Shown piece after piece: positions 3,401 to 62,600 of a stretch of 64,000 nucleotides of DNA. The notes below the pieces were generated by a model, which searched no databases, was not told where the DNA came from, and was given only the letters and a program-made list of their open reading frames with translations. This stretch comes from Tribonema minus (lineage: Eukaryota; Sar; Xanthophyceae; Tribonematales; Tribonemataceae): positions 248,001 to 312,000 of the forward strand of contig JAFCMP010000135.1 in the NCBI GenBank assembly GCA_017506865.1, in the 5' to 3' direction. Position numbers and translations under genes: made by a program. Every line of letters begins with the position of its first letter. Position 1 is the first letter of the stretch.

Positions 3401-5767
3401 CAGCTGGCACCGTGGAAGAGGGGCCTCGCGGCTGCCACAGCAGTGGCACATGCGGGATACGGCACTGGCGGACCATGCGGCGTGAGCTACATGCCGGACA
3501 GCTACATGCCAATCAGCCTCCCCGATGCCCCCCATAGTCTGTCGTCACGCGCAGCACGGGGCACCTTTGCTGTGCACGCTGTCTGCAGCACATACCGGCT
3601 CGCCTGTCATTGCAGCGAGCGGTACATTCACCAGTGTCGTTGGCCCTCGCGGTCGATCGTGGAGTGCGCAGGTGGGTGCGCGGTGCTGCGGCGGCTGCTG
3701 GCGGCGATGGAGGCGGGCGAGCTCGCGCCGAGCTGCGCCATGGCGGCGCTGCGCGAGAGCGCTGTGCGGCTGCTGCTCATGGAAATGCGCACACAGAAGT
3801 GGTGAGTCGAGCGAGCCGAGAGTCTCGTCCATCTGCCGGTGTGTGCATGTGTTTTGTCGTACTTTCACAGTGTGATACGACGAAGCTGCGTGCAGCAACA
3901 TGTTTGCCTAATGAGAGCGCCGTGCGACTGCTGCTCATGGAGATGCGCACGTAGCAGTGAGGGTCTTGTCCGTCCGCCGGTGCAGGCGCAAGCAGGTCAT
4001 TGCGTGCATGCAGAGCAGCGCGCCGACACACGCCAGCCTGAGCAATCTACTGCCCAATACCAGCACTGAGCAATCCCCCCTCAACAGTGGCAGAGCGACA
4101 ACCACTCTGCGGTCGGTGCCAAAAGAGCGGACGTGTCTGTGCGCCTGGCTCTGCCATTCACTGCCCCTCAGCCATGGTGGTGGCGCTGTTGCGGCGCGCT
4201 GCCCTAGCCGCTAGCATGAGTGCTGGGCATGAGGGCTTGGAATGCTGAGCGCTGCGCCTGGCGCGTCACCACTTGAGGTAGCTGGTCAAACTTGTGCTCA
4301 CCAGCCTGCATTGCTGTGCACCGGCAGAGGGTGGCAGAGGCAACAGAGGACTGACACTTGTGTGCCGCTTCGAGTGATGCATGCGTTGGGATCTGTTAAT
4401 CGAAATGAAACTGATTCAACTGCCAGCATGCAACAACTTCAAATTGCAAGACATTGAGGCTGCGCTGCATCCTGTGCTGGGCTTTGCACGAGAGCACCGT
4501 CAAGCACGGCGACTACCGCTGAGCGCTGCGCTGGTGCCGCGTCGTTTCTGCCGCCACGCGCAGCGCCAGGTGGTGCACACTGCGCCGCTGCACGAGATCG
4601 ACCAATGCCGCAGCGGCGCCGGCTATGCAGTGGAGAGATCCAGGTTCTGTGCCGAAAGATGCCCGGGGGAGCTGCATGGCGGCTACAACATTGGTTGTAG
4701 CGCACCATGCTTCAGACCCCGTCATGACGTGCGCTGCGCGGTCTGATATCACCTCCCTACCTACCTACCCCCTTCCACATCTCCACCCTTACCCTAGCCC
4801 CAACCCTAACCCTAATGTGCAGGTACAACCAGGCGTCCGCCATGGTGCGCGGCTACTTCTGCCGCGTCGCCGCGCGCACGGACGAGCGCTGCGGCGGCAG
4901 CAGCGGCGGCAGCAACGGCGGCGGCGCCGCCGGCAAGGCCGCGAGCGGCAAGAAGCGTCGCAGCAGCAGCAGCAGCAGCAGCAGTGCTCAGCAGGAGGAT
5001 GACGCCGCCCTGCAGGCATGCGCCGACGCGCTGACAGAGGAGCTCAAGAGCCTGGAGGCCATCCACGCACGTGAGTGCGAGGTCCCAGAGTCACTGTTAC
5101 TGAGTCTGGCAGCGTCTATGAGAGTCGACAAGTAGTGCGCGCGGACTGTCGCCCATGAGGCGCATGCGGGAAAGAGTGCAGCACGTGCTTTAGCAACGTG
5201 CACAGTCTCTGGAGGGATCGGAAAACCTTCAAAGCTATGGGAGCTGCAAGACGTCCCCATGATCCACCATTGGCGCTGAGGCCGCGGCGCTGGCTGGTAC
5301 TGTCGGTGTGCGGGCACGCTGGAGCATATGCGTATGCGTACCAGGTGAAAGACGCAGCTCAGCACTCAGAACGTTCGGAAGGATCTGTCGGCGCGCATGT
5401 TAGCATCAATCCGGTTTCTGCCAGGGCGTCGCAGCAACGCTCAGCATCGCCCATGACATCTTTGTCACTGCGAGGGCAACGATGTTGCCCTGTCTGCACA
5501 TGGAGCATCAGCATCAGACACTGCTCAGCGCTGATGCCACAAGATCCCCCCATTTTCCCGCCTCCTGTTTTAGGGTATCCCGGCACCAGCATGGACGTGC
5601 CGCGCGAGTTCCGCGAGTGCGCGCCGCGCTCCACTCTTGAAGATGATGGCATTGAAGAGGTTGAACTTGAAGCGCCGTCGACCGGCGATGCAGCGGCGGC
5701 GCAACAAGCTGAGGGCACAGCAGTAGCCGCTGCGCCGCCGCCGCCGGAGATCATAGAGCTCGAGTGA
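469..5767 (+). CDS. Uncharacterised UBA-like, low-complexity protein (six exons, 5' end uncertain)
   Basis: I do not recognise the family. Six exons join in phase: about 469-1053, 1563-1801, 2321-2505, 3672-3801, 4823-5070 and 5574-5767, all with GT-AG borders. The first exon is mostly Gln, Ala and Lys runs and ends in EREALHWLLQMGFQ, continued by SDEAVMGI in exon 2; this MGF-centred pattern resembles a UBA (ubiquitin-binding) helix bundle. Exons 3-5 are helical and rich in Glu, Arg and Leu (for example ESAVRLLLMEMRT). Exon 5 carries a Ser run, then ELKSLEAIHAR, which is faintly RWD-like. The protein ends acidic, in PPPPEIIELE. A link to the ubiquitin system is only inference. The start codon was not found; the acceptor at 467-468 suggests that the gene begins further upstream. 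The third and fourth introns contain copies of the exon edge before them. Confidence 0.55.
1838..1951 (+). mobile_element. Short interspersed element, copy 1 (intronic)
   Basis: This copy begins near GGAAACGAATCAAAAGATCG and ends near CATTGGCCACGAGTCAAAC. Four relatives lie at 44974-45080, 54879-55006, 61783-61892 and 63479-63592. The copy sits in the intron 1802-2320, same strand as the gene, and lacks an internal segment of about 20 bp present in the others. No coding capacity of its own is credible. No terminal inverted repeats or tRNA-like boxes were seen. Confidence 0.8.
2480..2860 (+). repeat. Tandem copies of an exon end plus donor site
   Basis: The end of the exon 2321-2505 (CTGCTGGCGGAGCCCGC, then the GTGCGT donor) recurs in the intron at about 2584-2632, 2682-2720 and 2807-2860, each followed by similar intron sequence (GTGCATGTGCACATGTAGTC in the first copy). 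The copies decay with distance from the exon. Confidence 0.75.
3915..3962 (+). repeat. Second copy of an exon end inside the following intron
   Basis: The sequence coding for ESAVRLLLMEMRT at the end of exon 3672-3801 is repeated here with few changes and is followed by a stop codon in that frame. The splice to 4823 keeps the frame when this copy is treated as intron. Confidence 0.75.
4786..4816 (+). repeat. Interstitial telomeric repeat at a 3' splice site
   Basis: Degenerate and perfect CCCTAA units run directly into the acceptor GTGCAG at 4817-4822 and so occupy the place of the polypyrimidine tract. Confidence 0.85.
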
Positions 5768-10834: not shown

Positions 10835-13800
10835 ATGGCAGGCGAAGGAGCGCCCAGCGGCCTGGCTACAGAAAGCTTGTTGCGGGCGCTGCGAGGAGCA
10901 AGAAATGGCAAGTACATTTGGAGATCCAACTATCGGATTTTGAGTGTGAGCACCGTATCATACAATGGTGCTGACCGGCGTTCTCTCATGCTGCTCTGGT
11001 GCGCCGTCTGGCAGGATTCATTTACGGCACCCGAGTACGATTTCCACATGGTAAGCCGACACAAATGCTTTTGGCTGGATCCTTTTACCATCTCAGTGCA
11101 TCCGCTGCTACGCCAAGGTCCTTGTGAAGTCACAGCAGTTAGTGGTGCACAGTTTTCATTGATTCTGTCGCGCTGATGTAGCGCAGCAGCCGCTGGGCAG
11201 CAACGTATGGAATTGCGATCGTTCGTCAATCTTGGATTGCAGCAACGGAGTTTAGATCTGCCAGTTGCAAAAGCTGGTGCTGCCGCCAGACCCGCTCAGT
11301 ACAAGTTACGCGCACGATGGGGGGCCACCTGGTGTTGACACGACAACGTTATCTGACTCCATGACGGCACCTCTCGTGTCAGTTACGGTTTGCGCACTGC
11401 TGCTGCTGAGCGTTGCTGCCGACGCTGCGCCCCCTTGCAGCGCTGGTCATGGCGCTCCTGTTCAAGCACGGCAACGCGCTGCAGAAGATGGACAGTGTGT
11501 GGAGCCTGACGTTTGAGCACGGGAAGGGGCTGGCGATGTTTGCGGTGAGTCGCAGTTGCACTTTGATACACCCGTGCGGTACGTAACCCGTCACAATCGG
11601 GGGCTTTGCTGTCGTACATGTGGATGGTTGTGTGCACTGGCCTGTCACCAGTTGCTGTTTCCAGTTTGGGCGTTTGAGTGCGCGGGGCGGCACTGCGTCT
11701 CAGTCCCGCAGAGCGCACTCTGCATTGCAGTCATCGTAGCTGCGTGGCCGGGCATCCTTTTGAGAAAGTGAAAACATTGAGAGCACGTCCGTGCGCTGCA
11801 CTTGTTGGGGGGGGGGGGGCAGACAAACCTCAAGTTTTTCTGCATGTGCAAGTTCCTGCCGTGACGCGCCTGATGCCTCCGACAGCATGCCTGTGTTAAA
11901 GTTGTGGGAGGTGCACAACTCTTGTTGTGTGGCCGTTGATGTCGTGAGCAAAGTGGGGAGGGGGGGGGCATCTAGCGGGACAGATCAACGTGGCGTCGTG
12001 AGGCTGTACTGCACTGTACTTCAAGTACTGTACAGGAAGGCACACACTGAGTGCTCTGTGCTGAGATTGCTTACTGTTGTCCGCTTGCCAGCTTTTGGCC
12101 CCTTGTGTAATGATGCCCTTTCAACCTGATCTACCTACTACACCTGACTTGACCGCACACACACATTGATTCGTCTCCATTGCGTCCTGGGAAGCGTGTG
12201 CATGCACTGACTCCGCTGACATGTATTCCGTGAAGACTACAGCAGGCGGGCACAACCGCGGTGGCTTTCATCACGCAAGACACATCACAACGACGACGTG
12301 GAGGTCATGGAAGTTGTGCGATCGATCAGGCGCATGTACACACATTTTTGATAGAGACCGCCGCATCATGTCATCTAACACGTCATTCAGCTCACAGCCA
12401 CGACACACACGACCATATACCCCTTGCTACCCCCCCCCCCCCCCCTTGTTTGAGGGCATCTGCAAAGCGCCTTGCACCAACGCCCCACCCCCCCCTGTAA
12501 CAGGTCATCTACAAGGCCCTCATGCTGACGCCGCTCTCCCCCTCCTGCCCCCCCCCCCCCCCCCCCCTTTACGCTGTAAACAGGGCATCTACAAGGGCCT
12601 CATGGAGCTCATGGAGCGCTGCGACGTCCTGCCGCGCAACCTGCGCGCGCTCGTCGCCGGCGGCGCCGCGGGGCGCCTCGTCTGGGCGCGCTACACCGCC
12701 GTCAACTACCAGATCGTGCTGTACCTCATGTCGCGCGTCGCGGTGGGCGGCGCAATGCGCCTGTCACGCGGCCTGCCGGCGCCGCTGCGGCGCTGCTCGT
12801 TCGAGGGCGTGTACCCGTACCTCGCGACGGCGTGCTGGGCGGTGGTGATGCACCTGTTTGAGAACGACGCGGACGTGCTGCACCCGTCGCTCGGCTCGTC
12901 CATGGAGTTCATCTACCACGACTGGTGAGTCGTGCAGGTTTGAAGTTTTGAGCTTTTGAAGTTGAAAGTTTTGAGCTTTTGAAGTTCACTTGGAATGGTG
13001 AGTCACCCCATTGAAGTTCATCCACTACATTGTCAATTCTCCAGTAGTCAATTCACCAGTACCACATATGGGTGCTGTGCCCGAAGCTCGGCTCGACTAC
13101 ATTGTCAATTCTCCAGCAGTCAATTCACCAGTACCACGTATGGGTGCTGCGCCCGACGCTCGGCTCGTTTACGGAGTTCATCTACCACGACTGGTGAGTT
13201 GCGCGGGTTGAAGCTTTCAGCTTTTGAAGTTCACTTGGACTGGTGAGTCACCCATTAAAGTTCACCCACTACTGTCAATGCACCAGTACCACGTATGGGT
13301 GCTGCGCCCGTCGCTCGGCTCGTCCATGGAGTTCAGCTACCACGACTGGTGAGTCGCGCGCTGAAGTTTGGTGCGTCAGCCTTTGAAGTTCACTTGGACT
13401 GGTGAGTCTTACCCGTTGCAGTTCATTCATCACAGTTGGCGAGTCACCTAGTGCTTATGGGTGCTACACCCGTCGCTCGGCTCGTCCATGGAGTTCATCT
13501 ACCACGACTGGTGCGTCGCGCGGGTTGAAGTTGCATGCTTCTACTTTTAAGATGGCCTTTGAAGTTCACTTGGACTGGTGAGGTACCCTTTGTAGATCGT
13601 TGTGCACCGCTTTGAGAACGACGCCGACGTGCTGCACCTGTCGCTCGGCTCGTCCATGGAGTTAATCTTCCACAACTGGTGAGTCGCGCGGGTTTGAAGT
13701 TTTGAGAGTTTGAAGTTCACTTAGACTGGTGAGGCACCCTTTGCAGTTCATCCACTATTGTCAAGCTCACCAGTATCACATATGGGTGCTGCGCCCGTCG

Positions 13801-14643
13801 CTCGGCTCGTCCATGGAGTCCATCACGACTGGTGAGTCGCGCGTTTGAAGTTGCATACTTCTAAGATAGCCTTTGAAGTTCACTTGGACTGGTGCATTTC
13901 AAGTTGCATACTTCGAAGTAGCCTTTGAAGTTCACTTGGACTGGTGAGGTACCCTCTGTAGAAACAATTCATTCATTGACTACCATTGGCGAGTCACCTC
14001 ATGCGTACAGGTGCTGCACCCGTCGCTCGGCTTGACCGTGGGGTTCGTCTACCACTCTCGGTGAGTCGACTCTTGAAGTAAAACGGAACGGATCGAAGCC
14101 CCCTCTCTCCACTCATCCGAGCAAGCTGATGTGGCCATGAGGGGGGAGGGGAGCGCTTGCGCATCATTGTCGAGGTGCATAGGGTTAGGGGTAGGGTTAG
14201 GATTAGGGTCCTCCGCACGCGCTTGAGCGGCACCCCCCGCCACTGCGCGAATCCACGACACGTGGCCTGCGCACAACAGCGTACGATAGAGCTCCTGCCA
14301 CGCGCACGCTGGGCAGTGGGTATACTGCACTCCAATCAACCTCTACACGCACCTGCACATGCCTTCAGGCATGGGCTAGGGCCGCTTCTACACTTCTATA
14401 CTGCATGAATCCAGCCAGCCGTTTCCTGAGCATCTGACGCATGCCCCCCCCCCCCCCTGCAGCCACTGCTGGGAGGAGTTCAAGGCCATGCTGCCGCTGC
14501 GGCAGACGTGCGCCATCGTGGCCGCCTACGCAGCCTATGCGCTAGTCACGCACCTGCCGGGCGTAAGAGGGGGGCCAGGGGAAGGCGGTGGCCAGTGCCC
14601 GCGGTTGAAACCGCCTGCGGCGTGCGGCGGAGGCGTGACCTGA
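10835..14643 (+). CDS. PXMP4: Peroxisomal membrane protein 4 (PMP24) homologue
   Basis: Five exons, 10835-10907, 11015-11050, 11441-11544, 12584-12924 and 14463-14643, join in phase to 244 residues; animal PXMP4 is about 212. The order of landmarks matches the PXMP4/PMP24 family of the Tim17/22/23 superfamily: RGARNGFIYGTRVRFPHA, then LVMALLFKHGN, LTFEHGKGLAMFAGIYKGL, a Gly-rich segment (LVAGGAAGRLVW), NYQIVLYLMSRV and near the end LHPSLGSSMEFIYHD. It is expected to be a multi-pass protein of the peroxisomal membrane; its transport role is not settled. The start ATG gives a short N-terminus. The second exon is only 36 nt. The first intron has a GC donor. The C-terminal 30 residues are Gly/Pro-rich and not conserved. 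The last intron holds six copies of the preceding exon end. Confidence 0.86.
13060..14072 (+). repeat. Array of six duplicated exon ends with donor sites
   Basis: The last 40 nt or so of exon 12584-12924 (GCTCGGCTCGTCCATGGAGT through to CACGACTG) plus its donor and intron start recur at about 13155-13205, 13310-13360, 13470-13522, 13611-13690, 13797-13843 and 14011-14070. Five keep GTGAGT and one has GTGCGT. The copy at 13611 reaches further into the exon (codons for FENDADVLH). Units are spaced 140-215 bp and share the filler TTTGAAGTTCACTTGGACTG. Confidence 0.92.
14181..14210 (+). repeat. Interstitial telomeric repeat (intronic)
   Basis: AGGGTTAGGGGTAGGGTTAG and variants, inside the last PXMP4 intron and on the G-rich strand relative to the gene. 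Confidence 0.85.
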
Positions 14644-45606: not shown

Positions 45607-47214
45607 CAGGAGCAGGAGAGTGTGTGGATGCCTTCTGCTCCCGATGGCGTGCTGTGCATGTGTACTGGCGCACGATCTTCATTGATGGAAGGCAATCTAT
45701 TAACTGAAGTGACGACCGTAGGTCATGCAGTGACATGACGAATCAATGCAGACACTGTGTATTACGCTGCGTGCTTGCTGACGGTCATGAAATAGTATTC
45801 TTGGTATGGTGAGACTGTATGCCATTGGCGCGGCGGCATGACGGCTCAGGGCTGGCATTTGCCTCTGTCGTATGCCTGCGCGCACCTCTCTCACGTGTAC
45901 TTGGGTTGCTGCGCATTTGCGCCTGTTTCAAAGCATGCGTAATGACCACACCGCCAGGCACGTCCCGACTGCCTCACACAGCGTGACAAACGTCTTTCTA
46001 CCTATGAGGTGTTCGTAATCGGCACCAGCCACAGATCAGTCTTTTTGGGCTTCGTGCAGTTACAACTGCTGTCGTCTGACCCATGCCGTCACGGTTCGCA
46101 AGCAAGCAGACAAGCCTGTATTTGCAATACGGGAATGGCAACAGCTGTTGCCCGAGCACAACAGCTCAATCACTGTGTTTGCGTGCTGTTGTGTCTGGGC
46201 CATGGTACAGTAATAAAACCCAAGGTACGGATCGCGTCGTTGTTAACCAGCTGATATTGTTGCACCAGACTGCGCTGTAAGTTGGTGGAACCATCTCGCC
46301 ACCCTTGCATTTGCTTAAAAAATCTTCACCTTCATATACAGTCCAGCAAATGACACCTATTGCATTGCTCTGGCATTCATATAGGGCATCCAGACAGACT
46401 CCGCATGATCAGGGGAACATCCAACCGCCTTGCTGTGTCGTCGATGTTGCAGAAACGACAAGAGATTTTAAGGCTCAAAATGAGATTTGCTTTGAGAGTC
46501 CTCGCTGTGCACGCGAGAAAGCCCAACCGACTAGGGCGCTTGTCGACTTCAGTCGACAACATTCCGAGTTGAAGTTCAAATCCATGGTATGGGAAGCCGC
46601 AGGATGCGTGCAGCCAAGATTCACGTGTAATTTTCACCTTCTGAGACAGTTATCACTTGTCCGCCATATGCAAGCGCTCGGTCCAGGATGGCCGCCACGC
46701 TTTTGGTTGCCTGAGTCAGGGTCCTGTCCAGCATGCTCGTCCCCTCCAAGTTAAGCGACCGCCGCGAGCGCTGCCCAGCTGAAACTTTGCTAAAACAGAG
46801 CCATTTTCATGTCTGCCTCTCTTGGCGGCAACCTGATCATGATCAACTTCAAATGATGAACTTCAAATAGACCCCGCAGAAACAGTCCAACACCTGAACC
46901 GTCGTAGGGCTCCTGGTCCGCGCAGTGACGTACATATGGCCAGCATGTACCATGTACCTGAGGCAGCTCAGATATTTATCCCAATATGACGCAAGGCATT
47001 GCCGCGCGGTTTGGTCAGAAGCGAGCACGAAGTGACTTCAGTGGCAAACGTAGGTTGATGGATGTATATTCAATTGCCTTTCTCCATGTGAAGTCGTATC
47101 TGCACAGGGGGCCAGTTTCCTTCCCCTCTCCACGTCACAGAGCAATTGTATCATTACACGCCTAGTCTACAGCTACTTGGTGTTTCGGTGTGGTGATATG
47201 TGCGCACGGTTGCA
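45607..47214. other. Intergenic region upstream of the FO synthase
   Basis: No gene is supported. This is the expected promoter side of the FO synthase. It is lower in GC from 45990 to 47200 and has a doubled AACTTCAAAT at 46845-46868. Confidence 0.4.
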
Positions 47215-47905
47215 ACCTATGTAATGCTGTATGTATGCCATTTATGCATGCGTCATGCGCAGCAAATGTGTGTGTGTGTGTGTGTGTGTGTGTCAGCTCT
47301 GCATCATGAAGCTGCAGCTGGTGGTTCTACGTGCCTGCATGCCGCATTTCCTGTGCCTGAATGCCTGTGCGACACGCTCTCCCCCCACTAGCTAGCGATG
47401 CTGCCGGCGCAGCAGCAGTGTCCATGCATCCACTGGCAACTGCGGCAGCGCGTAGCTGTAGATTCTATGTAATGCTGTACGTATAGACCATTGTTATGCA
47501 CGCGTCGTGCGCAGCACGTATGTGCCAGTTCTGCATCAGCTGGTGGCGTTGCATGCTGTGTGCTGCACTTCCTCTGCGCAAATGCCTTGTGCGACGTGCT
47601 CTCCACCCACTAGATAGTGATGCTGCCGGTGCAGCAGCTGCGTCCACGCATCCAGCTGCAGCAGCGGGTAGCTACATGTAGTTTCTATGTAATGCTGTAT
47701 GTGTGCCATTTTTATGCACGCGTCATGCGCAGCACATATATGTGTCAGTTCTGCGTCAACTGGTGGCGCCGCTTGCCTGCGTGCCACACTTCCTCTGCGT
47801 AAATGCCTGTGCGACACTCTCTCCACCCACAAGCTAGTGATGTTGCCGGCGCAGCAGCTGTGTCCACGCGTCCAGCTGCGGCAGCACGTAGCTGTAGTTT
47901 CTCAC
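47215..47905 (-). repeat. Three tandem units of about 230 bp built on the 3' end of a gene
   Basis: Units run about 47215-47460, 47465-47690 and 47690-47905. Each contains a version of the codons for VLPQLDAWTQLLRRQHH, and two also carry a tract around GTAATGCTGTATGT and GCACGCGTCATGCGCAGCAC. The unit at 47690-47905 is the functional gene end. The stop codon is changed in the middle copy. A (TG)n run sits in the first unit. Confidence 0.85.
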
Positions 47906-59684: not shown

Positions 59685-62600
59685 GCTGCCTCGCTGGGGA
59701 ATGTCGCGTGCGCTCCGCAGCGTGCTACTAAGGTACACGTGGTGGCGGTGAAGCGCTTTCGGTAGGTAGCTGTCAGGATGCGATGGATGCAAGCGCATCG
59801 CCATGTGAAGCTTTTATGTACATGCACATCTATACATGATGTACATACTGTTTTACTTCTGCAGCAGCACCCAGCTCAGAAACGGTTCCGGTGTGCGCAG
59901 GCAAGCAGCGCGTGGGGTTCCGCGGCAGCGGAAGCTGCGCATGCGCCGTGCGCGTTGCCGCCGCACGACGCAACACTTGCAGGTTGGAGGACGCAGTGAG
60001 GGCTGCATTACACACGGCGCGCTGCAACCGATCCTGGGGGCGATGCTCAGCGCATGCCTATGGTGGTAAGTACTTCAAGTGTGTACTTGAAGTGCGAGCG
60101 ATCCGCCCTCGCTCGCGCTGCGTCGCGCTTGAGGCGAGACGCGCGCACCGCTGCCGCACCAGCAGCGCCGGTGCGCTGCGAGAGTCACTACTTGAAGTTT
60201 GTACTTGAAGTGCGTGCACTTGAAGTGTACGTGGCGCGTCGTCTGCTCACGTTTCGTCGGGCTCGATGCCGCGCCGCCGCATGTCACCGATCAGGCCCAG
60301 CGCGTCGCGCAGCGCACCCGCGCCGGGGGCGCGCGCGCATGCGGACGCCGCCGCGCTGCGTCAAGTGCGAAGAAGCAGAGAGAGCACATGAGTTGAAGAC
60401 AGGAGGTCCTTCAATAAATTCGGTGAACCACGTGTGTGCACAGTCAGGATGTGTACAAGAACCGAGTCTTTGAGTACTACTCGCGGCGCGCACGCGGACG
60501 CCGCCGCGCTGCGTCAAGTGCGAAGGCGCAGAGAGAGCACATGAGTTTATGATAGGAAATGATTCAAGTAATCTGGTGAAGCACGTGTGCACAGTCAGGA
60601 CGAGTGCAGGTAACGAGTATTCGAGTACTACTCCCGGCACGGGCGCGCGCGCACGCGGACGCAGCCGCGCTGCGTTAAGTGCAAAGACGCAGAGAACACC
60701 TGGGGTGATGATAGGAAGTAATTCAAGTTTGGTCAATAACGTGCGCATGTCTGCCGCGCTATCAAGCGCGGTCGTCGGTGGCGTCGCAAGCTGATGTTAG
60801 GGAGTACTTGAAGTAACTTGGGGAGCAACTGCGCCAAGTGCAAAGGCGAAGGTAGCACACGGTTTGTCATAGAAGATACTTCAAGTGTTTGATGAAGCAC
60901 GTGTGCACAGTCAGGACGAGTACAAGTAACGAGCATTCGAGTACTACTCCCGGCACGGGCGCGCGCGCGCATGCGGATGCCGCCGCGCTGCATCAAAGTG
61001 CGAAGGCGCAGAGAACAAGAGATTTGATGATGGGAAGTACTTGAAGTAATTTCGTAAACAACGTGTGCACAGTCAGGACGAGTACAAGTAACGAGTGCTC
61101 GAGCACTGCTCTGCTCCCGATAAATCTGGAAATTTACACGTGTAATCAAGCACTTTTGGCAAAACTTAAAATTCACACGAGTACTACTACAGTTCTACTT
61201 CCTCCCCTCAATATGCGGGACGGGCCGCGCTGCATCGAGTGCCAAGGCGCAGAGAGCACGTGGGTTGATGATTGGAGGTTCCTACTTCAAGTAAATTGGG
61301 GAGCAACTGCGTCGAGTGCAACGGCGCAAGGAACACATGAGATGACAACAGCAAGTACTCTCAGTAATTTGGGGAAACAATTGCGTTGAGTGCAATGGAG
61401 CAGAGAACACATGAGATGATGACACGGAGTACCCCAAGTAATTTGCTGAAGAATGTGTGTGCAGGTCCGCCGTGCCGTGCCGCCATTAGCTGCGTCGCAC
61501 GCGGGGTTACCGTGCGCGACGCAGATGAGTAGTAGTGGCACGCGATGGCGATCACGGGCGGTGACGCGATCCCACGGAAGGAGTCAGTGTCGGTGCAAGA
61601 GCTCGCATCAGCGCAGACATCTGCGATACACCGCGCCGGCTTCAGCCAACTTCACTTCATCCCATGTGTAGCCATTGAGAAGCACAAGCTGCAAGTCTTG
61701 TGTAGAGCTTTGCGTAGCTCATGGGCGCGACTGGGTACCATAGACTTCGTAAAACTCCTTTACAGCATTCAAGGGACAATATGGAAACAAATCAAAAGAT
61801 CGTAGAGCTCTAGGTGACAATGTGTGTTAGCCGTCAAATTGAATGCCTTCCACCAATGACCGTGGTCGTTGCTGCTGCAGCAATTGGCCAATATGTTACA
61901 GTTGAGAGCAGCTCATAGCTCAAGTTCTTGTCTGTGGGGGCTCAGTCATGGCGCTCATACCTGTGAAAGCTTCAGCCAACTCCACATCCACCATGTGTAG
62001 CCATAGAGAAGACGTGACTCTCCACGAGGGCTAGCCCTAACCCTAATCATAAGTTGATGTGTAGCCATCAGCTGTTTGAGAAGACACACAGGCTCAATTA
62101 ACGCGGTCACGACACTCATACCTTCTCTCATGGTTCGGAATGCACTGTGACTGATTTCGAAACAAGAACGTACTTCAAGAAGTATATATATTTCCAACAC
62201 CATTCTGGCTCCAAATGCATTTCCTCATGGTCCTAGACGTAACCCTAACCCTGAGTTGATGCGGTCATGGCGCTTACATACCTGTACATGTGCTGGTCCG
62301 ACATGACATCGCGTATGTAGCCATCCGCCGTTTGGGAAGACACAAGGGCTCAAGTAGCATGGCCACAACGCTCGTGTTTGAGAAGACAGAAGGGCTCAAT
62401 TAGCGCAGCCACATCGCTTGTATCTGTACGTGTGCTGGTCCGGCGTGTCGCCGCGCCGCTGCGTCTTCTCCAGCAGCGACAGCGCGCCGCTGCGTCTCCT
62501 CCAGCAGCGACAGCGCGCGCGCGCCGTGTATAACTCGCCAAATGTCTCGATAGTCAATGCCTCCACCGCACAACACTGAGCAGCTCAGACTTACAGGTTC

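Follow-up and report, generated by a model that had tools for sequence, protein, structure and literature searches.

In this study, we examined a 64,000-nucleotide (nt) stretch of DNA from Tribonema minus (positions 248001-312000 of contig JAFCMP010000135.1, here C135; "the window" below), in which a PXMP4/Pmp24-like gene carries, within its fourth intron, an array of copies of the end of the preceding exon together with its donor site. The window is GC-rich and holds exon-intron genes with poly-C at their acceptors; coordinates count from its first base, and those beyond it are numbered from the window start along C135. The PXMP4/Pmp24-like gene occupies 10835-14640 on the plus strand, and its five exons, with inferred splice sites, lie at 10835-10907 (followed by a GC donor), 11015-11050, 11441-11544, 12584-12924, and 14463-14640. 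Joined, they yield a predicted protein of 244 amino acids (aa) with no stop, which scores above the cut-off for the Pfam family Tim17/Tim22/Tim23/Pmp24 (PF02466, E=1.6e-8); this match is absent for a partial protein lacking the first exons, and the protein has no match among solved structures. The start of exon 4 at 12584 was picked for its likeness to human PXMP4, and the hidden Markov model (HMM) used for gene prediction offers an alternative opening at 12398. Intron 4 (12925-14462) ends in a poly-C tract and the acceptor TGCAG (14444-14462), with an open join to 14463. When the protein was searched against the genome (158 Mb in 554 contigs), the matches placed the gene at a single location, with one extra match in the region of a copy described below (c4).

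Six strong plus-strand copies of the end of exon 4 and its donor follow the real donor within intron 4. The source segment (12875-12930) consists of the last 50 nt of the exon and the real donor GTGAGT (12925-12930), and the repeat search returned seven in-register copies, that is, the exon and the six, spaced by 269, 155, 162, 168, 157, and 225 nt. The copies are c1 at 13144-13199 (exonic part 13144-13193, donor at 13194, 5/50 exonic differences), c2 at 13299-13354 (donor at 13349, 2/50), c3 at 13461-13516 (donor at 13511, 1/50), c4 at 13603-13684 (26 extra exonic nt, donor at 13679, 4 exonic differences, 90% identity over 115 nt), c5 at 13786-13837 (a 4-nt deletion, donor at 13832, 2/46), and the most decayed, c6, at 14011-14066 (donor at 14061, 9/50). 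Their exonic parts thus diverge from exon 4 by 2-18%. The donor reads GTGAGT in all but c3, which has GTGCGT, as the initial annotation had stated; the count of six given there also stands, far beyond what shuffles produce, but its copy length of about 40 nt was too short. The exonic part spans 76 nt (12849-12924) in c4 and 46-50 nt in each of the others. Because five copies start from 12875 and c4 from 12849, exon 4 holds at least two different breakpoints.

These matches are well separated from chance. A 48-nt edge probe (12885-12932) was matched against the intron, 500 dinucleotide shuffles, the minus strand, and the rest of the window; the six intron matches scored 54-91, the best shuffle reached 30, the minus strand gave a single match of 18 (threshold 18), and the remaining plus strand gave one at a threshold of 22. 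The comparison with shuffled controls therefore comes out clearly on the side of genuine copies. GTGAGT occurs nine times in 12925-14072, the real donor included, against 0.44 expected from the remaining plus strand. Three of the six copies are identical to the real donor from −5 to +6, and the donor bases of the copies carry 1 change in 36 compared with 23 in 296 exonic positions, numbers too small to indicate selection that keeps the donors. The other end of the exon shows a related feature: a plus-strand acceptor-edge copy (12499-12524; CAG plus 21 exonic nt, 92% identical to 12579-12604) lies 80 nt upstream of the exon 4 acceptor, and a weaker one is found at 12453-12465.

The copies are best read as intronic, and they look noncoding. 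The predicted join from 12924 to 14463, which restores PXMP4, spans the whole array, so that the reading of the initial annotation holds on this point, given the 244-aa product and the spread of changes in the copies over codon positions 1, 2, and 3 (7, 12, and 4), where positions 1 and 2 are not avoided and position 3 shows no excess. Its further suggestion that some copies would yield in-frame repeat proteins fails, however. The exon's frame runs across the real donor as GAC TGG TGA, and since this TGA (12926-12928) follows the donor immediately, use of an inner donor would end the protein at once. We also tried 81 cassettes of 20-260 nt in intron 4, each bounded by a [CT]AG acceptor and a GT-type donor; in 13 of these combinations the frame is maintained and stays open, and in no case is a copy read in the frame of exon 4. 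The extra protein match at c4 (45% identity) contains four stops within the matched stretch, an independent sign of a decayed copy. In tandem exon duplication, exon sequence is repeated in the next intron as a whole exon with both splice sites and in frame; here, by contrast, 46-76 of 341 nt were copied, with one splice site, and the copies are decayed and apparently noncoding. We therefore consider it improbable that these are alternative or cassette exons retained for a coding role, with several copies present in the protein, even though some of the copies have intact splice-site sequence; the downstream donors of PXMP4 that run into the TGA and the codon-position spread speak against it as well, and parallel evidence from other genes is taken up below.

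Beneath the six strong copies lies a second tier. Intron 4 contains 11 weaker edge-like matches with scores of 18-24, whereas shuffles average 0.62 each with a maximum of 3, and 6 of the 11 coincide with a seven-copy plus-strand family, GAAGTTCACTTGGACTGGTGAG, found with the repeat search and the edge probe (12975-13962; starts at 12975, 13220, 13379, 13555, 13706, 13869, and 13921). The consensus of this family shares 12 identical nt with the exon edge, a score matched by 2 of 5,000 consensus shuffles and by none of 5,000 edge shuffles, which suggests that the family probably represents older edge copies. Younger duplications are superimposed on the plus strand: a head-to-tail duplication of 72 nt inside the array (13024-13167, 94% identity), another of 52 nt (13844-13946, 94%), and one of 23 nt directly after the real donor (12943-12986). 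The head-to-tail units, with periods of 23, 52, 72, ∼155, and ∼330 nt, make up a nested tandem repeat that was founded on sequence including the exon edge. Minisatellites and higher-order tandem repeats likewise have head-to-tail units and nested periods; unlike in them, the unit that founded this array carries both an exon edge and a splice site of donor type. Among 19 young duplications inspected for microhomology, 16 have a matched run between 9 nt shorter and 5 nt longer than the unit.

Two other origins of the array can be weighed at this point. Tandem arrays are hard to assemble, and an assembly artefact might be suspected; yet the copies differ from one another as well as from the exon, at a divergence that makes a simple assembly duplication unlikely, and edge copies recur on C135, on a second contig (C18), and, with ab initio exons, on a third (C334), which leaves this explanation very improbable. 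A mobile introner-like element carrying its own splice sites would also place repeated sequence with splice sites in introns, and short parts of the intron flank of the ankyrin gene discussed below do match other contigs. Against this, the source of each copy is the neighboring exon, and the PXMP4 units, like those of an HMG-box gene treated below, match only their own loci in the genome (in these locality searches the best candidates were scored and common words skipped). We regard an introner-like origin as extremely improbable, and reject a dispersed element, these two sets of units being found, among the best candidates scored, at their own loci only.

Similar copies occur at exons elsewhere, where gene models are ab initio predictions, unvalidated, from a small HMM applied to sequence only. 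Copies with an exon edge, usually including part of the splice site, lie beside the exon ends or starts at 3801, 194762, 198109, 98372, 106294, 106449, 85286, and 123419. Beside the predicted exon ending at 3801, the last 47 nt are copied into its intron on the plus strand (3913-3959, 41/47 identical), with a TAG in the exon's frame and no donor. The exon at 98372 encodes half an HMG box scoring above the Pfam cut-off and has two acceptor-edge copies, of which the first has lost its AG and the second retains it; its unit was found nowhere else in the genome among the best candidates scored. This recurrence, mostly with ab initio models, agrees with the claim of the initial annotation that more than a single accident is involved.

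The wider region is rich in short local duplications. Our regional sample comprised 314 kb, that is, 264 kb of C135 (the window and the adjoining 200 kb) and 50 kb of C334. Complex direct repeats of at least 30 nt within 1.5 kb outnumber inverted ones by 237 to 13 on C135 and by 15 to 0 on C334 (252 to 13 combined). Across 74 arrays, the smallest offset per array ranges from 58 to 1,045 nt, with no sharp peak of the kind a nucleosome-like period would give, and the best identity per array from 67 to 97%; the broad offsets and identities suggest that duplication has been long-lasting.

Whether exon borders are favored is a separate matter. Among those of 306 predicted C135 junctions that passed the filters (intron of at least 150 nt, exon score of at least 10, exon of at least 60 nt, nonrepetitive probe), we found a copy of the edge in the adjacent intron for 9/111 donors and 8/113 acceptors, compared with 1/79 and 1/87 for probes 80 nt inside the exon and 13/171 for the intron interior; the minus strand gave none in every class, and after shuffling a single probe, from the intron interior, attained the score. 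Pooled, edges (17/224) equal the intron interior and exceed the exon interior (2/166, p=0.003). Relative to circular shifts, edges are enriched at exon scores of at least 15 (22/244 versus 8.3 expected, with none of 400 shifts as high) and of at least 20 (17/203 versus 7.0), and in a test of coverage by duplicated segments, donors (13/112, p=0.05) and acceptors (14/132, p=0.08) are each marginally above the shift. In a comparison of 22 edges with 46 copies, conservation is stronger on the exon side at 16 of the edges (mean 0.82, versus 0.71 on the intron side; p=0.003).

Several results count against a preference for exon edges. At exon scores of at least 30, edges show no excess over circular shifts (7/147 versus 5.2, p=0.29), and duplicated segments cover the exon interior as often as the intron interior (149/2,087 versus 154/2,608), which argues that duplication as such does not spare exon interiors, although part of this coverage comes from repeats inside one exon. 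The exon-side conservation is biased, since the copy search set a higher requirement for exonic match than for intronic, and it is in part simply what an exon that does not drift would give. Outside PXMP4, moreover, several edges are weak, and the models there are ab initio. Two cases were set aside: the predicted exon at 91600, a weak edge with an in-frame stop, and that at 72988, where the copies at 72235-72711 resemble whole exons and may be real tandem exons. Both remain in the edge, coverage, shift, and conservation counts wherever they passed the filters. A preference of duplication for borders is thus not established, edges and intron interior being copied at the same rate and no excess appearing at the highest exon scores; of the earlier proposal that introns here grow, as a general process, by duplication across borders, the recurrence stands; that duplication favors borders is not shown. 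What the data suggest is a duplication process that does not avoid exon-intron borders and seems blind to them.

As to the excluded cases themselves, a probable 49-nt exon at 91600-91648 is copied nearly whole 168 nt upstream (91432-91480, 46/49 identical), the copy lacking a clear donor, and C135 72230-73258 consists of tandem units of ∼200 nt with predicted exons of 162 nt that are about 88-94% alike, a possible true case of tandem exons. The whole-exon look of the copies at 72235-72711 is a point in favor of the cassette-exon explanation.

The most informative parallel is an ankyrin exon on C135 (106294-106449), whose Pfam ankyrin matches fall below the cut-off. Among the best candidates scored, the genome search returned one close paralogue, on C18; 33 of 156 sites distinguish the two exons, distributed 6/3/24 over the codon positions (p=4e-6), and the 24 third-position differences indicate that both are real coding exons. 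Edge copies flank the exon on both sides in both paralogues. On C135, the exon is preceded by four acceptor-edge copies, of which one has just 9 exonic nt or so, and followed by four donor-edge copies, one of them lacking a donor. These copies bear on the cassette-exon explanation in both directions: some donor copies have an open frame (the C18 copy) or an AG upstream, and one is identical to the exon over 59/59 nt, whereas the acceptor-side copies on C135 pass into the intron without a donor-like site at the break, as judged by eye, and the remaining donor copies on C135 contain a TAG or gaps that break the frame, or lack a donor.

The two ankyrin loci also allow the history of the copies to be considered. 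Upstream, the copied exonic lengths, judged by eye, are about 55-57 and 9 nt on C135 and about 68, 37, and 11 nt on C18, and these differing breakpoints suggest that the events were separate. On the downstream side, the two loci agree in the base at which the first donor copy begins (-90/-89), and a base at -71 is common to both copies and present in neither exon, which together suggest one old event. Twelve sites between -64 and -1, of which 10 are third codon positions, nevertheless group each donor copy with its own exon; this agreement at synonymous sites means that selection at the protein level is no explanation. The first intron bases of the copy also follow their own locus (GTGAGG versus GTAT). 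On C18, mismatches between the exon and its own copy number 8/30 before -60 and 3/60 after it (p=0.005), as expected of a mosaic. The C135 copy with the 59/59 match to the exon has an intron flank that is only 0.57 identical over 40 nt.

From these sequence patterns, gene conversion between exon and copy is probably the best explanation of the donor-copy pattern as a whole, with renewed duplication at the same breakpoint as the alternative. According to the latter, the copies are young, and their likeness within each locus reflects separate duplications after the paralogues split. We give this alternative, which concerns only the gene-conversion step, somewhat under an even chance. It would account for the different acceptor breakpoints in the two loci and for the older states that copies keep where the C18 exon has since changed, and a frequent, blind process can strike the same spot twice; it is harder to square with the identical start of the donor copy, the common base at -71, and the shift in mismatch density at about -60 on C18. 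Some observations tell against conversion. C135 shows no such change in density (3/30 versus 3/60, p=0.40), so that the mosaic is confined to C18, and -71 is the only site inside the homology that groups the copies against the exons, so that a single site within it supports a common origin of the donor copies. The same type of pattern is found at -108 and -94, beyond the stretch in which copies and exons are homologous, and at the outermost position of that stretch, -90, and the chance that -71 should lie before all 12 locus-specific sites is 1/13. In PXMP4, whole-unit alignment of exon 4 with c1-c5 gives 14/246 exonic and 57/314 intronic differences, and comparison of c1-c5 among themselves gives 49/484 and 111/614. 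The twofold exon-versus-copies difference is expected simply from an exon that does not drift, and the lower exonic figure among the copies fits either gene conversion or a higher mutation rate in the intron.

Taken together, we think it likely that intron 4 grew through recurrent tandem duplication of short local segments, in part across the exon-intron border. Where a duplicated stretch included the donor, two near-identical segments of exon end plus donor would result; if the outermost donor stayed in use, the protein would be unchanged, the inner copy would become intron, and the intron would be longer. Acceptors would behave as the mirror image, the last one being used. Units could then duplicate again and build a nested array. 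Such a process may run through the whole stretch examined, seemingly without regard to borders, with exon-edge copies tolerated because the extra copy would be spliced out. In certain cases a copy would afterwards stay like its own exon over the exonic part, probably through gene conversion with the exon as a fixed template. More speculatively, and with considerable doubt, one may envisage a neutral ratchet in which border-spanning duplications lengthen introns, followed by concerted evolution of the intronic copies and the exon: the exon edge, held by selection, would serve as the master and overwrite its decoys by gene conversion, splice site included, introns would keep stocks of near-identical splice sites able to write back into the exon, and splicing would choose by position rather than by sequence.

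Duplication across exon-intron borders is already known. In the potato RdRp gene, a new intron arose when a tandem duplication ran across the boundary between an intron and an exon (PMC4974935). As we propose here, splice signals already present pass to the copy, but in potato a single duplication gave a new intron, supported by RNA-seq and by relatives. In Tribonema, by comparison, no new intron is made; the sequence suggests that an existing one lengthens over many rounds of nested duplication, with both edges involved and several genes affected. In Drosophila, novel intron positions arose through intron sliding or tandem duplication (PMC2891723). There too exonic sequence was duplicated and one copy intronized; in the portions of that work considered, however, coding duplications and a proto-splice site gave introns at new positions, apparently without one-edge arrays in an existing intron. 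Excerpts of the literature searched contained no description of exon-edge copy arrays inside introns. Within what those sources cover, the new element here would be one-edge arrays within an existing intron, over several genes and possibly homogenized by the exon.

How introns grow, and how the spliceosome chooses among near-identical sites, are long-standing questions, usually studied with artificial constructs. In duplicated splice-site test constructs, similar sites compete at set distances, and work under the title "Splice site proximity influences alternative exon definition" (PMC9225289) reportedly deals with such competition. Unlike those constructs, PXMP4 is a natural case, in which one intron holds the real donor plus six strong copies as a series at set distances from one acceptor, and its frame would expose any use of an inner donor, since this would introduce a stop immediately. 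Where a genome copies its exon edges into introns time and again, duplication, decay, splice-site survival, and exon-intron gene conversion could be measured directly.

Some minor observations remain. Inside the PXMP4 intron, beyond the array, lies a telomere-like interstitial stretch of TTAGGG-type units (14181-14209), and a piece resembling it, GGGTTAGGG, was seen in locus L036 near C18:64315. The most over-represented complex 8-mer of the 314 kb is TTGAAGTT/AACTTCAA, with 126 occurrences on both strands, 31 times the expectation from base composition (for example, at 12950-13960, 46839-46868, and 10730). In noncoding blocks of C135 it occurs 103 times, against 3-7 in five shuffles (coding, 5/111), its two orientations are similarly frequent, and its flanks look unrelated in the contexts inspected; its tie to arrays is not significant (10/47 noncoding arrays versus 7.0 expected, p=0.16). 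The word TTGAAGTTGAAGTT occurs 2,420 times in the genome and is its own reverse, hence without a valid control. Further large arrays in the window, at 47217-47902 (periods of about 220-248) and 60324-61475 (153), adjoin predicted minus-strand exons. Finally, an rbcL fragment on C334 (L009) matches red-type Rubisco far better than green-type (about 115-117 versus ∼66 bits), which speaks against a green alga and makes a haptophyte or stramenopile the probable host; this and a second short rbcL fragment (L010), both on 2-Mb contigs, are probably plastid DNA inserted in the nucleus.

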